A DNA stretch of 64,000 nt from NCBI RefSeq assembly GCF_014779595.1, contig NZ_JACXZT010000010.1, positions 248,001-312,000 on the forward strand, given 5' to 3'. Position numbers and translations under genes: made by a program. Under the pieces are notes generated by a model. The model made no database searches. It worked only from the letters and a program-made list of their open reading frames with translations, and was not told where the DNA came from. Source of the DNA: Halomonas sp. ML-15 (lineage in GTDB: Bacteria > Pseudomonadota > Gammaproteobacteria > Pseudomonadales > Halomonadaceae). Positions within the stretch are counted from its first letter, which is position 1, and each line of letters starts with the position of its first letter. Positions 31,648 through 35,229 of this stretch are shown here, in pieces.

Positions 31648-32328
31648 ATGACAATACAAGATGAGAAACGCCGCAGCATGCTTAGTCGGCTAAGCCGTCA
31701 GCTAGGCTACACCGCGCCGGCTCTGCTGCTGGTAGCCGGTGGATCGGCGTTTCAGGCGGTGGCCAGCGATGCCGCTGACAGCAGTGCATTTACCAGCAGC
31801 CAGGAAGCACCGCTGATGCTGGCGGAGGCTCACGCCGAGGGGGAAGCCGAAGCCGAGGGGGAGGCCGAAGCGGAGGGTGAAGCCGAAGCAGAGGGGGAAG
31901 CGGAGGGTGAAGCCGAAGCGGGCGACCACGATAGATCCGCTGTCGAGCGCCCCGAGGGATATACGCCGGGCTATGACGAGTCGGGTGATAATCCCGCCGA
32001 GCTGATTGCCCGCGGCGAAGCGCTGTTCAACGACGCGTCACTGAGTAGCAACGGCCTCTCCTGTGCCAGCTGTCACGGCGCCGATGGCCTGTCCGGATAC
32101 CAGGAGTCGTTCAACCAAACCTATCCTCACCAGGTTGCCATGGGCATGGACATGTTCTCCATGGAGCATGTGCATGCTGATGAGATGGTCCAGCTGTGCA
32201 TGATCGCCCCGATGGAGGCCGAGCCACTGGACTGGGAGTCGGACGAGCTGGCGGCGCTATCGGCCTATGTGGTCGATGCTCAGCAGCGCTTTGCTGGCAG
32301 CAGCGCAGGACATAACTGCGATACCTGA
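31648..32328 (+). CDS. c-type cytochrome with shared leader and Glu-rich repeat linker
   Basis: The 226-residue protein has three parts. Residues 1-40 form a leader (MTIQDEKRRSMLSRLSRQLG, then a hydrophobic stretch ending AVAS) that is 33/40 identical to the leader of the small protein at 34930. Residues 51-64 (SQEAPLMLAEAHAE) are identical in both, and residues 65-92 are alternating Glu/Ala/Gly. A haem domain follows with CASCH at 139-143 and Met-rich MGMDMFSM as possible ligand. It is probably periplasmic. GAGGAGG lies 7 nt before the ATG; an in-frame start at 31594 lacks one. The TTL-like ligase gene follows 175 nt downstream. Confidence 0.88.
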   Translation: MTIQDEKRRSMLSRLSRQLGYTAPALLLVAGGSAFQAVASDAADSSAFTSSQEAPLMLAEAHAEGEAEAEGEAEAEGEAEAEGEAEGEAEAGDHDRSAVERPEGYTPGYDESGDNPAELIARGEALFNDASLSSNGLSCASCHGADGLSGYQESFNQTYPHQVAMGMDMFSMEHVHADEMVQLCMIAPMEAEPLDWESDELAALSAYVVDAQQRFAGSSAGHNCDT

Positions 32329-32503
32329 CCCCGTGCGTCAAGGGGAAGGCTGCTCCTTCCCCTTTATCGCCGCCGCTACCCGGGAGGGCGTTAGGCCCGT
32401 CGGGCATGAGGGCTTGTAAGGATTGACGTGCGGCGACGACATACGGGGAGGGCATGCAAAGGTTGAACGACATCGCGACGTAGCCAAATGGGGGGGCAGT
32501 GGG

Positions 32504-34861
32504 ATGACGGAGCAGACTTCGCCGCAACGGCGGTTCTGGCTGGGCGGTAAGCGGGCCGACGAACAGGATCGTTTTTTTCGCGAGGCGCTGGAGGCGCTAG
32601 GCTGGCGCCGGGGGGATGACACTCGTTGGGAAGCTGCTTGGATCACCGGGATGCCCGACGCCAAGCAGTTTCGCCAGGTATCACCCCAGCGTCGCATGAA
32701 CCATTTCCCGGGCAATGCGGCGCTGACGGTCAAGAGCCGTCTTCACGCGAGCCTGGCGGCGCTACGTGAGCGTATGCAACAAATCCACGGCGCCGATAGT
32801 GAGTGGGCCGAGCGGCTGGCGTTCTTTCCGCGCTCCTATGAGATGCCGCAGGATTACCACACCCTACAGGTCGCTGCCCGCGAGGCACCGCAGCAGCGTT
32901 GGATTCTCAAGCCCACCAATGCCTCCAAGGGCAAGGGGATACAGGTTTTGCAGAGAGTGGCAGAGGCGCCGCTGAAGCCTGACTGGCTGGTGCAGGAGTA
33001 CCTGGCCAACCCGCATACCATTCGTGGCCACAAGTATGTGCTGCGTCTCTATGTACTGATCTCGTCAATCGAGCCGCTGCGCGTCTACCTCTATCGTCAG
33101 GGGTTTGCCAAGCTTGCCTCCGAGCCCTGGGATCCTGACGATGTCGACAACCCCTTCAGCCAGTTGACCAACCCCGACATCAACGCGCTCAACACAGAGG
33201 CCGACGTGCCGGTGGAGTTTATCGATCTCGAGCGCTATCGAGACTGGCTGCGTGAGCAGGGGCACGACGATGCTCAGCTGTTTGCCAAGATCGAGGACCT
33301 GGTCGCCTTGACCGCTATCTCGGCGCTCGACGCCATCAAGCAGCGTACCGCCCAGGCCGGTGCAGACCCCCGCGGCTGCTATGAGCTGCTGGGACTCGAC
33401 TGCCTGGTGGACGACACCCTCAAACCGTGGATTCTCGAGTGCAACTTGAGCCCTTCACTGGGTACCTGCGCTGCGCCGGAGAGTGGCGGGGTGATCGAGG
33501 AGGAGATCAAGGGTGGCCTGGTGCGGGACATGCTCAGGCTGCTCGGCATCGGCGAGCCCCAGGCCGCTGGCGACGACTCCCCGCTAGCCGAAACGCAGGC
33601 GGAGCAGGCTCGCGCTGGCAGCTTTCAGCGATTGTTGCCGGCCAGTGAGCAGCAGCGCTATCTGCCCTATTTTTCGTTGCCGGCGCCTGCCGACCTGCAG
33701 TTGGCCGATGCCATGAGCGGCGAGCGGGTGGCGCGGCCACAGTTGATGCGTCGCCACGTGGCAGAGCTTTTCGAGGGTGACCAGCTGGCGCTCTACGCCA
33801 CCCATACCCATCGTTACTACCGTCCCAATGATACCGCCGCACTGATTTGGCTACTGGCCAGCGAGGGCTTCGATCCCGACACCATTGCCGACCAACTGGC
33901 TCGCTCCACCGGTGAGGATCACTCGGCGTTGCGTGACGAGGTCTGGTCCAGCCTGGCGGGCTGGTGTCGCGAGGGATTGCTGTGTCAGCAGGGGGCAGAG
34001 GGTGAAATCGCCGCGGTAGCCCCGGCGGCCAGGATGCACGACGAGCCCCAGGCGCTGCAGTTGGGTTTTGATGGCAAGCAGTGGGCGCTGCATCTTCACG
34101 ATGCGCCTGCACTGGACACGTTGACGATGCTGTTTGCCGGAGCGCTGGTGCCGCTCAGTGATAGCTCGGCGCTGCGTCTGCCTCGACTCGAAGTGCTCAA
34201 GGCGTCCGCCGGTTATAGCCTGGCCGCCAACGGTGAGATGGTCGCCGCGCGGCTGACGCTGGCTCAACTCGGCCCGGCCCTGCTGGGTTACTTGATGCGC
34301 CAGGCCCTTCTGCCGGGGCGCCAGGTGCTCGACGCGGGCTTGCTGATCACCCCCGGGGGGACCGGGGTGCTGTGTCTGTTTCCCATCGTCGAACGTGCCG
34401 AGGTGGCGCAGCGGCTGGTGTCGGCAACCCAGGGCGTGCTGTCGCGCGGAGTGCGCCTGACACTGGGTGAGACGCCGCGAGTCGAGCCGCTCGGCTTGCC
34501 GATCCCCGACGTTATCAGCCCAGGGCTGGTCGACGTGCCGGGGTCCATCGCGCTTGAGGCGGTGCTGTGCAGTGGGGAGGACGGCGTCAGCCATGAGCTG
34601 AGTGAGATCGACGTTCTCGATGCGCTGGGCGACCTGCTGCCCTGCTGCCTCTTCGACGACGATGCTCCTGCTGGGGCAGCGACGGTGGTGGCGCTCAATG
34701 ACTGGTTGGCCGGGCTTTCGCGCCGCGCCATGGGCACTCAGGCGCCCTCCTTTACCGCGCTGTCGCACTGGCTCAAGGCGCTCGAGGCAGGGGAAAGGCT
34801 CACCGAGCAGAAGACGCCACCGTCCCAGGACGGTGGCGCCGTAAGGGCGTCAACCCTATAG
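32504..34861 (+). CDS. TTL-like ATP-grasp ligase fused to PqqD-like and HPr-kinase-like domains
   Basis: The 785-residue protein carries a full tubulin-tyrosine-ligase-like domain (about 1-350): NHFPG (67-70), ILKPTNASKGKGIQ (134-147), VQEYL, KYVLRLYVL (177-185), LTNPDINA, and YELLGLDCL...ILECNLSPSL (293-319) with the metal-binding Asp, Glu and Asn. Residues about 437-493 (RYYRPNDTAALIWLL to CREGLL) resemble PqqD, a peptide-binding RiPP recognition fold. Residues about 510-665 resemble HPr-kinase-related domains, but the P-loop is degenerate (LLITPGGTGVLCL). TTLL enzymes ligate Glu, Gly or Tyr to Glu-rich tails. Flanking genes encode Glu-rich tails, the likely substrates (inferred). The start at 32504 follows a G-rich site. 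Confidence 0.85.
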   Translation: MTEQTSPQRRFWLGGKRADEQDRFFREALEALGWRRGDDTRWEAAWITGMPDAKQFRQVSPQRRMNHFPGNAALTVKSRLHASLAALRERMQQIHGADSEWAERLAFFPRSYEMPQDYHTLQVAAREAPQQRWILKPTNASKGKGIQVLQRVAEAPLKPDWLVQEYLANPHTIRGHKYVLRLYVLISSIEPLRVYLYRQGFAKLASEPWDPDDVDNPFSQLTNPDINALNTEADVPVEFIDLERYRDWLREQGHDDAQLFAKIEDLVALTAISALDAIKQRTAQAGADPRGCYELLGLDCLVDDTLKPWILECNLSPSLGTCAAPESGGVIEEEIKGGLVRDMLRLLGIGEPQAAGDDSPLAETQAEQARAGSFQRLLPASEQQRYLPYFSLPAPADLQLADAMSGERVARPQLMRRHVAELFEGDQLALYATHTHRYYRPNDTAALIWLLASEGFDPDTIADQLARSTGEDHSALRDEVWSSLAGWCREGLLCQQGAEGEIAAVAPAARMHDEPQALQLGFDGKQWALHLHDAPALDTLTMLFAGALVPLSDSSALRLPRLEVLKASAGYSLAANGEMVAARLTLAQLGPALLGYLMRQALLPGRQVLDAGLLITPGGTGVLCLFPIVERAEVAQRLVSATQGVLSRGVRLTLGETPRVEPLGLPIPDVISPGLVDVPGSIALEAVLCSGEDGVSHELSEIDVLDALGDLLPCCLFDDDAPAGAATVVALNDWLAGLSRRAMGTQAPSFTALSHWLKALEAGERLTEQKTPPSQDGGAVRASTL

Positions 34862-34871
34862 GGGTTGACGC
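34847..34871 (+). terminator. Hairpin spanning the stop codon of the TTL-like gene
   Basis: GCGTCAACCC pairs perfectly with GGGTTGACGC across a 5-nt loop that contains most of the TAG stop (34859-34861). A second GC-rich hairpin (CGCCACCGTCC/GGACGGTGGCG, about 34816-34838) lies just before it. No T tract follows. The structures may attenuate or separate expression of the short Glu-rich protein gene downstream. Confidence 0.45.
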
Positions 34872-34929
34872 TACTGCATGGCGGCATGCCATCGCATGTC
34901 GCTTACTCGTCACCATGGAGGTCTTGATC

Positions 34930-35229
34930 ATGACACTGCAAGACGAAAAACGCCGCAGCCTGCTGAGCCGGCTCAGCCGTCAACTGGGCTATGCTGCCCC
35001 GGCGCTGGTGCTGGTCGCCAGCGGGGTAGCCTTTCAGGCCGTTGCGGATGACGCCACCACTGGCGCGGGGTTCTCGGGTAGCCAGGAGGCGCCGCTGATG
35101 CTGGCAGAAGCGCATGCCGAAGCGGATCCCGAGGCGGAGGGCGAAGGCGACGCGGAAGGAGAGGCAGAAGGAGAAGCGGAAGGAGAAGGTGAAGCGGAAG
35201 GAGAGGCCGAGGCGGAAGCCGAAGGCTGA
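34930..35229 (+). CDS. Short leader plus Glu-rich tail protein, probable modification substrate
   Basis: The 99-residue protein begins MTLQDEKRRSLLSRLSRQLG, then a hydrophobic stretch (21-38) ending AFQAVADD, like a long signal peptide with a basic RR-containing front. SQEAPLMLAEAHAE (51-64) follows, and the last 35 residues are almost only Glu, Ala and Gly in GEAEGEAE-type repeats ending EAEAEAEG. It has no haem motif, unlike the cytochrome at 31648, so it resembles a bare substrate. The acidic tail looks like a tubulin C-terminal tail, the natural target of TTLL enzymes. The ATG at 34930 has GGAGG 8 nt upstream. A bulged GC hairpin (35246-35269) follows the stop. Confidence 0.82.
   Translation: MTLQDEKRRSLLSRLSRQLGYAAPALVLVASGVAFQAVADDATTGAGFSGSQEAPLMLAEAHAEADPEAEGEGDAEGEAEGEAEGEGEAEGEAEAEAEG

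Follow-up and report, generated by a model that had tools for sequence, protein, structure and literature searches.

The window analysed here is a stretch of 64,000 nucleotides from Halomonas sp. ML-15 (contig NZ_JACXZT010000010.1, positions 248,001 to 312,000; G000:C5:248001-312000 in our numbering, where G denotes genomes and L loci), taken from a genome of 4.8 Mb. It carries a candidate protein-modification system: a gene for a tubulin tyrosine ligase-like (TTLL) enzyme is preceded by a gene for a c-type cytochrome and followed by genes for a short peptide and a DinB-like protein (Table 1), and the cytochrome and the peptide share an N-terminal leader and contain tracts rich in Glu, Ala, and Gly. 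The enzyme gene and its flanking leader-bearing, Glu-rich genes, one of them encoding a cytochrome, lie where a preliminary description of this DNA had placed them, and the motifs quoted there (NHFPG, KPTNASKGKG, LRLYVL, and ILECNLSPSL) are all present in the enzyme translation. Our analysis adds the degenerate HprK-like domain of the enzyme, the DinB-like gene, the Marinobacter lineage, and the bias of the tracts toward Glu over Asp. The list of open reading frames (ORFs) starts the short peptide 15 bases upstream of position 34930; a GGAGG sequence before the ATG at 34930 and the homologues favour the latter start.

Table 1. Genes and domains of the proposed modification system in the window (amino acid boundaries marked ~ are approximate).
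Feature	Position	Strand	Description and basis
Leader-tagged c-type cytochrome, 226 aa	31648..32328	+	Leader, Glu/Ala/Gly tract, SoxA/TsdA-type haem domain with CASCH
Cytochrome leader, ~aa 1-40	31648..31767	+	RRxxLxxLSRxxxYxAP and hydrophobic stretch; by eye signal-peptide-like; alignment, leader model
Glu/Ala/Gly tract within the cytochrome, ~aa 60-91, where modification is proposed	31825..31920	+	Sequence; E:D bias of linkers
Cytochrome c domain with CxxCH	32011..32274	+	PF21342, aa 122-209, E=1.2e-8
TTLL-RRE-HprK-like enzyme, 785 aa	32504..34861	+	Pfam, PDB search, models
TTL/TTLL ATP-grasp domain, predicted catalytic, ~aa 8-346	32525..33541	+	PF03133; TTLL6 similarity; invariant residues
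PqqD/RRE domain, proposed leader-binding module, ~aa 412-496	33737..33991	+	PF05402; lasso B1 structural match
HprK/PEPCK-like domain, P-loop lost, ~aa 515-768	34046..34807	+	Structural and profile matches
Short peptide of 99 aa with leader and Glu/Ala/Gly tail, proposed as the main substrate	34930..35229	+	Sequence; peptide downstream of enzyme in 57/60 loci
Glu/Ala/Gly tail of the 99-aa peptide, ~aa 63-99	35116..35226	+	Sequence; composition over 100 peptides
DinB-like protein, 185 aa	35306..35863	+	PF05163, E=3.2e-7; conserved beside the peptide

The enzyme accounts for the single TTL-family match in the host genome, with PF03133 covering aa 62-325 (Pfam, E=3.8e-52). In a search of all PDB sequences, its nearest relatives were the polyglutamylases TTLL6 (8e-42) and TTLL7 (1e-38), followed by TTLL11 (6e-18), with 5vlq (2.5e-11; labelled LOC100158544 protein in the PDB, which we take to be a TTLL3 glycylase) and TTL (best 2e-9) far behind. 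A model derived from 46 aligned sequences, that of the window among them (mean predicted local distance difference test score, pLDDT, 86.9), carries the TTL-type ATP-grasp fold and superposes on TTLL6 with Z 42.3 and a root-mean-square deviation (rmsd) of 2.4 over 362 aligned residues. Residues K136, K177, R181, D299, E312, and N314, whose correspondence was established through the TTLL6 alignment, are invariant in all 46 sequences; they comprise the ExN motif and the Lys, Arg, and Asp positions that presumably serve catalysis and ATP/Mg binding. E312, the Glu of the ExN motif, probably corresponds to the TTLL11 residue altered in E531G, a change described as ligase-dead (PMC11574253). The assignment to the TTLL type made in the preliminary description is thus borne out, polyglutamylases being closest among solved structures and the catalytic positions being invariant.

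Because the rows of the whole-model superposition mostly span aa 8-391, the part from aa 405 onwards was folded and searched separately (pLDDT 88.2). TTLL enzymes are marked by tubulin as target and by a microtubule-binding region; in the present enzyme this C-terminal part models as a RiPP recognition element (RRE; RiPP, ribosomally synthesized and post-translationally modified peptide) followed by an HprK-like domain. The PqqD profile PF05402 matches the enzyme at aa 429-493 with 28.4 bits (cut-off 23.4), and among three distant members it lies above the cut-off in L174 and below it in L141 (Marinobacter) and L169 (Ectothiorhodospiraceae). The first 90 residues of the separate model superpose on lasso B1 proteins bound to leaders, with Z 13.2-13.8 and rmsd 1.6-1.7; the top match is 6jx3_B, a lasso B1 protein with leader peptide (Z 13.8), and Foldseek with the C-terminal model returned TbiB1 (7e-5). 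The remainder resembles HprK (Z 8.1-9.3) and PEPCK (Z 7.5-8.8); these structural values are modest (best HprK row: Z 9.3, 128 residues, rmsd 3.4; Foldseek: PEPCK 2e-4, HprK 2e-3) and are backed by profile matches. Two further genomes of the class contain PqqD-HprK proteins that retain the P-loop and are also matched by the whole-enzyme profile (E 4e-13 and 4e-12); these proteins show similarity to HprK-related kinase A (1e-26 and 3e-28), though short of the cut-off for membership. In profile comparison, the last domain of the enzyme matched PqqD-HprK proteins with a probability of 49-53%, and HprK_rel_A proteins alone yielded no match (1.8%); it is chiefly the structural match that supports the HprK-like assignment. 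The Walker A P-loop (GxxxxGK[ST]) was found in none of the 46 sequences. As modelled, the enzyme looks like a TTLL ligase fused to an RRE and a dead HprK-like domain.

The leaders of the two neighbouring proteins are 78% identical over 64 aa. Both stand out as good leader matches when the host genome is searched (E of 1e-35 and 2e-26), and no third leader protein was revealed there, the next matches having E 0.05 and 0.8; the former is, by eye, a porin-like ORF. Among 24,978 ORF segments of the fetched loci, a leader model built from 20 of the leader proteins gave 186 matches at E<=0.001, a count that includes the 20 model-building sequences and some genomes scanned under two names, with one further match at 0.001-1, and the reversed versions of the same segments gave none at E<=10. 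The motif L[LIM]xx[LV]xx...P occurs in 136 of the 137 unique leader proteins, the set from which it was derived. Twin-arginine (Tat) export was considered as a defining feature and rejected: [RK]R stands within the first 14 residues in 101 of the 137, and the leader is therefore not strictly twin-arginine. With an RRE/PqqD domain fused to the modifying enzyme, and a genetically linked precursor composed of a conserved leader and a variable core, the locus shows two features of RRE-dependent RiPP systems; leader-dependent modification and leader removal would be a third.

Tails of the short peptides (100 unique peptides) have a median length of 37 residues (range 14-67) and consist of 40.5% Glu, 24.6% Gly, 23.9% Ala, 2.8% Lys, 1.4% Ser, and 0.9% Asp. 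Chance or slippage alone was rejected as the origin of the tracts, since all four Ala and all four Gly codons are used and Asp is avoided. The abundance of Gly and Ala beside Glu would suit a system of the same layout with a donor other than Glu, in which the tail glutamates are glycylated, as tubulin is by TTLL3/8/10, or receive another amino acid; TTLL chemistry permits glycylation of Glu gamma-carboxyls, according to PMC12340829. Since the polyglutamylases TTLL6, TTLL7, and TTLL11 rank well ahead of 5vlq in similarity to the enzyme, though similarity does not fix the donor, we regard this variant as unlikely, if with some chance of being right. Another reading of the tails is graspetide-type chemistry, that is, ester or amide cross-links from tail carboxyls to Ser, Thr, or Lys: ATP-grasp enzymes with linked precursors form an established peptide class (described in PMC8939145), the stretch between leader and tail often contains Ser or Thr, and 42 of the 100 tails have at least two Lys/Ser/Thr residues. 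Against it, 29 tails have none of these residues and 29 more have one; furthermore, the catalytic domain is a TTL, and no graspetide-ligase name appeared among Pfam and NCBIfam matches up to E=1, a screen that involved no separate graspetide profile search. We hold cross-linking to be very improbable. Four loci (L133, L137, L140, and L158) encode two short leader peptides each.

The second kind of leader protein is a cytochrome, of which the scanned loci yield 29 unique examples carrying CxxCH. In the 26 of these whose domain boundary was located by the pattern, the E:D ratio is 490:10 in the linkers vs 259:210 in the haem domains of the same proteins. The tracts are Glu-specific, with Glu kept and Asp avoided, which fits a ligase acting on the Glu gamma-carboxyl; a requirement for acidity alone would be indifferent to the choice between the two residues. 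In addition, the cytochrome tract is internal and precedes the haem domain, so that side chains are favoured over the C-terminus as the site of modification. This observation bears on a further alternative, extension of the free C-terminus of the peptide in the manner of TTL, RimK, or TTLL11. Nine of the 100 tails end in GY, AY, or TY, which recalls alpha-tubulin. TTLL11 is described as beginning chains on the free C-terminal carboxyl (PMC11574253), and yet a cytochrome with the same leader carries its tract ahead of a C-terminal haem domain, the C-terminal residues of the peptides differ, and extension at that end would make long Glu tracts unnecessary; we give this possibility little credence.

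Most leader-positive genomes of the window's family (69 of 82) have two or three leader matches. Among 19 second or otherwise odd leader ORFs, 16 are CxxCH leader cytochromes, and the others are one relocated short peptide, one contig-end fragment, and one 69-aa remnant. Haem clients also extend to more distant hosts. In Pararhodobacter (L173), the enzyme locus itself has no leader; when the entire genome was searched, a leader protein came to light on a different contig (L242:1474-2403), with an (EAEG)-type tract, CADCH, and a weak match to cytochrome P460 (20.1 bits, cut-off 27). In an alphaproteobacterium (L174:7517-8694), a larger tract-bearing protein near the peptide ends in a similarly weak P460 match (20.6 bits, cut-off 27). 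Given these P460-like proteins, the haem clients appear to come from more than one family. Locus L174 also encodes a leader peptide ending in GDGY.

Pairing of enzyme and leader was assessed in 275 genomes of the window's family. Of 91 TTL matches there, 79 were strong (one of them the truncated enzyme of G001), and 12 weak, partial matches in genera g13 (8 genomes) and g15 (4), with best E values of 1e-9 to 6e-4, were dropped. The leader was found in 78 of the 79 genomes with a strong enzyme match vs 4 of the 196 without (78 with both, 1 with the enzyme only, 4 with the leader only, 192 with neither; Fisher p=1.5e-62, not corrected for shared ancestry); these whole-genome searches scored at most 25 candidates a genome, and a divergent leader could be missed. 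A second genus, identified as Marinobacter because its coordinates agree with those of named loci (e.g., L143/G1027 and L144/G1040), repeated the pattern in 124 genomes: the leader was present in 27 of 27 with the enzyme and in 0 of 97 without. The 27 are those with a full-length enzyme or one split over two frames (G1064 and G1082), after two fragments among the 29 enzyme matches (G1084 and G1107, neither with a leader) had been dropped. Enzyme and leader proteins are therefore a conserved module and not a strain oddity; the preliminary description had made its proposal of an enzyme-substrate system depend on recurrence beyond this strain, and co-occurrence in two lineages now supports it strongly.

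Exceptions within the family are few. In G001, the sole enzyme-positive genome without a leader, the truncated enzyme frame runs, by eye, into a DinB-like remnant, and a natural deletion at this locus (L202, G001:C12) has cost the genome the peptide, the terminal part of the enzyme, and the greater part of the DinB-like gene; the three have decayed jointly. Three of the four leader-only genomes are 74-86% complete, and the complete one, G046, retains a cytochrome only; in G266, one of the four, some 4 kb separate a remnant of a leader from a fragment of an enzyme gene. These distributions also bear on the idea that salt adaptation, or the buffering of cations, accounts for the acidic tracts without any modification, and that the enzyme acts elsewhere. 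Poly-acidic stretches are common in halophilic and halotolerant organisms, and most of the named hosts belong to genera that we take to be halophilic or halotolerant. The near-perfect co-inheritance in two lineages, the enrichment of Glu and not of Asp, and in the tract only, and the direct link provided by a common leader and an RRE argue against it, and it is the least probable of the readings considered.

Gene order was compared in 60 loci fetched from the 79 strong enzyme matches. The short leader peptide lies downstream of the enzyme, on the same strand and within 560 bases, in 57 of them, and the DinB-like gene follows in 56; the four loci without it are the three that lack the peptide and L060 (G090). 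In G031, G042, and G074, the peptide is relocated elsewhere in the genome, with the DinB-like gene alongside in all three; the DinB-like gene travels with the peptide, even away from the enzyme. Among the named loci, which are the best 80 of 92 relatives, with many duplicating genomes already counted under G handles, 54 belong to Halomonadaceae, 21 to Marinobacter and relatives, and 5 to other hosts, which include an Ectothiorhodospiraceae metagenome-assembled genome (MAG), a Competibacteraceae MAG, and Alphaproteobacteria; the window's genus holds Franzmannia pantelleriensis (G022, identical to L095). Loci of the Marinobacter group typically run from the enzyme through the short peptide and the DinB-like gene to the leader cytochrome, with the DinB-like gene and the leader cytochrome cluster each present in 19 of the 21 loci. 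Overall, 140 of the 145 sequences scanned have a leader match; the five without are L166, which reaches a contig end, L039, whose genome G042 holds a leader elsewhere, and L114, L170, and L173, for whose genomes the same is true. The enzyme looks rare outside these lineages: in a sample of the class, scored at 2 candidates a genome, 7 of 369 genomes match its profile, 4 of them with long matches and our own genome included, and in a sample of the phylum 4 of 398 genomes, our own and G240 among them, match PF03133 at E<=1e-12.

We consider it reasonably probable that these genes encode a leader-guided protein-modification system in which the RRE holds the leader and the TTLL domain ligates amino acids, probably Glu, to Glu side chains of the tract before export. 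As the fold and the co-inheritance suggest, the PqqD/RRE domain of the cytoplasmic enzyme would bind the shared N-terminal, export-signal-like leader of a client, and clients would be of two kinds: haem proteins, for the most part c-type cytochromes, and the short peptide. The TTLL domain would then join amino acids by isopeptide bonds to the side-chain carboxyls of the tract glutamates, in keeping with the fold, the invariant residues, the Glu bias, and the internal position of the tract. The product would probably be short glutamate branches such as those TTLL6 and TTLL7 build on tubulin tails; to judge solely from the ranking of the relatives, Glu is some three times as probable a donor as Gly. 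Since the enzyme needs ATP and has no visible export signal, and since c-type haem is attached in the periplasm, the reaction would take place first, in the cytoplasm, with export and then removal of the leader presumably following. The periplasm would receive a hyper-acidic peptide and a cytochrome with a modified acidic arm, and the DinB-like protein would be an accessory component. A modified polyanionic cytochrome arm together with a free polyanionic peptide suggests a part in the handling of ions or metals or in bringing redox partners together. A DoxX-like gene occurs in 6 of the 80 named loci (BLAST cluster; confirmed with Pfam in L133), and these genes, with the parallel to bufferins described below, point in this direction only by analogy. 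We hold it to be somewhat more likely than not that this is a native bacterial counterpart of the tubulin code, in which an RRE-steered TTLL would write branched amino-acid chains on the Glu-rich arms of exported proteins, haem proteins of two families included, and the export leader would mark the recipients of a polyanionic coat. In L133 the DoxX-like gene (L133:7395-7847) lies between the enzyme and the peptides.

Several observations weigh against this interpretation. Reading frames and folds do not in themselves establish a reaction. G046, a complete genome, keeps a leader cytochrome without a detectable enzyme; G1056 (L160) has the enzyme and a leader cytochrome with no short peptide match, and G090 has the enzyme and the peptide with no DinB-like gene within the 8 kb searched. 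Most Halomonadaceae loci do not have the cytochrome close by (it lies within the 12.8-kb locus in 9 of 60); otherwise, among the matches listed, it may be found at a distance of tens of kb or on a separate contig. Conservation is much lower in the RRE (mean pairwise identity 0.48) and the HprK-like domain (0.29) than in the TTL domain (0.68), and a high-copy Glu/Ala/Gly repeat can also arise by DNA slippage. A CCP-type M14 deglutamylase was considered separately as a partner and rejected, as the host genome has no M14 match (the control was positive in 5 of 14 genomes).

Compared with known systems, the proposed pathway shares the ATP-grasp fold, the catalytic motifs, and acidic, Glu-rich target tails with the TTLL polyglutamylases (TTLL6, TTLL7, and TTLL11; PF03133), from which it differs in being bacterial, in its C-terminal RRE and degenerate HprK-like domain, and in its exported clients with a common leader. 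RimK belongs to a different ATP-grasp family and adds to the C-terminus, and to our knowledge it has neither an RRE nor a leader. What the RimK/RimABK system, acting on ribosomal protein S6, has in common with the present one is a bacterial ATP-grasp glutamate ligase that works on a protein, as presented in PMC11957791. Graspetides likewise combine an ATP-grasp enzyme with a genetically linked precursor, but their enzymes are of another ATP-grasp family, and many tails here are short of cross-link nucleophiles. Bufferins are described as copper-binding exported RiPPs with Sec signal peptides, modified by multinuclear non-heme iron-dependent oxidases (MNIOs) (PMC12452194). In that account they resemble our clients in that the export signal is suspected as the recognition element, the partner is of the RRE type, DoxX occurs in many clusters, and some are cytochrome c fusions; in contrast, their enzyme is an MNIO and their precursors contain Cys. 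The MNIO profile PF05114, searched against the complete host genome, matched nothing at E<=0.001 (the control was positive in 2 of 14 genomes). Legionella SidJ is also a bacterial protein polyglutamylase, as reported in PMC6858067; according to PMC8548325, however, it is a kinase-fold effector, of unrelated fold, that acts on SidE effectors in host cells.

The literature on RREs and TTLs touches on these components separately. The RRE-Finder paper names RRE-glycosyltransferase and RRE-glutathione S-transferase (GST) fusions, and the word "tubulin" is absent from its main text (PMC7470986), as it is from the main texts of a 2025 RRE paper (PMC12710340) and a graspetide survey (PMC8939145). TTLs are mentioned as tubulin modifiers in a paper on the CDC123 clade (PMC4431377), and for a TTL protein of a Riftia symbiont the target was taken to be the tubulin of the host (PMC6918071). 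Native bacterial clients are conceivable for the Riftia symbiont protein too. No published TTL-RRE enzyme and no bacterial TTLL with bacterial clients was found among the records listed in searches of the open-licence PMC literature, in agreement with the preliminary description, to whose author no described bacterial system of this form was known. The components are of known kinds and their combination is apparently undescribed; there is a fair chance that the system forms a class of its own.

TTLL enzymes are usually regarded as tools of the eukaryotic cytoskeleton, and here genomics alone has led to one with apparent bacterial clients. If the proposal is correct, the system would be a RiPP class and a type of leader-directed protein modification not seen before, and no earlier TTLL pathway would have had bacterial substrates of its own. 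The leader tag would be transferable to other cargo, and the role of polyanionic arms on periplasmic cytochromes of halophiles would become a question. Such a pathway would also offer a clue to the origin or the destination of the eukaryotic TTLL toolkit, with transfer conceivable in either direction.

Loci of the HPr-rel-A type, with PqqD and an HprK-related protein (TIGR04352/TIGR04353), resemble the present one in joining PqqD to an HprK-related fold and, at some of them, in having neighbouring exported-looking proteins with N-termini of the RR...AP... type. They differ in that no TTL is fused and the P-loop, lost here in all 46 sequences, is present. We know of no function for such loci. 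At L204:453-3065 (G468), a PqqD-HprK protein with an intact P-loop stands with an NTP_transf_5 protein and a peptide of 71 aa; the leader model matches this peptide at its N-terminus, NRRAFLKKAGKFAVYTPPAMM (E=3e-4). The link of the leader to PqqD-HprK loci consists of this one match, the next best among 1541 segments having E 0.046 and a better match, L208, being already a family member. A pattern search of 20 HprK-related loci found exported-looking proteins of about 220 aa in five (L215, L217, L218, L221, and L223), with N-termini of the type RRR-LK-AAAPV--T-ASRPA-G, a layout like that of the present leader. To judge from these N-termini, PqqD/HprK systems perhaps read a general leader type.

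Genome G468 also encodes, at L203:4917-6962, a stand-alone TTL of 367 aa (PF03133, E=6.5e-44) that precedes an exported-looking protein of 248 aa with a double-arginine N-terminus and the stretch LPAHAQTS; by its sequence, this is a possible second bacterial TTL-client pair, without the RRE fusion.

Within the window, a consensus scan for operon signals listed two minus-strand sites, one resembling a promoter and the other a terminator, neither of them beyond shuffle expectation. At 32340-32365, 3' of the cytochrome stop codon, a GC-rich inverted repeat (AAGGGGAAGG...CCTTCCCCTTT) with a short T run, which the scan did not list, looks terminator-like by eye, and from this repeat the cytochrome gene may be its own transcription unit.

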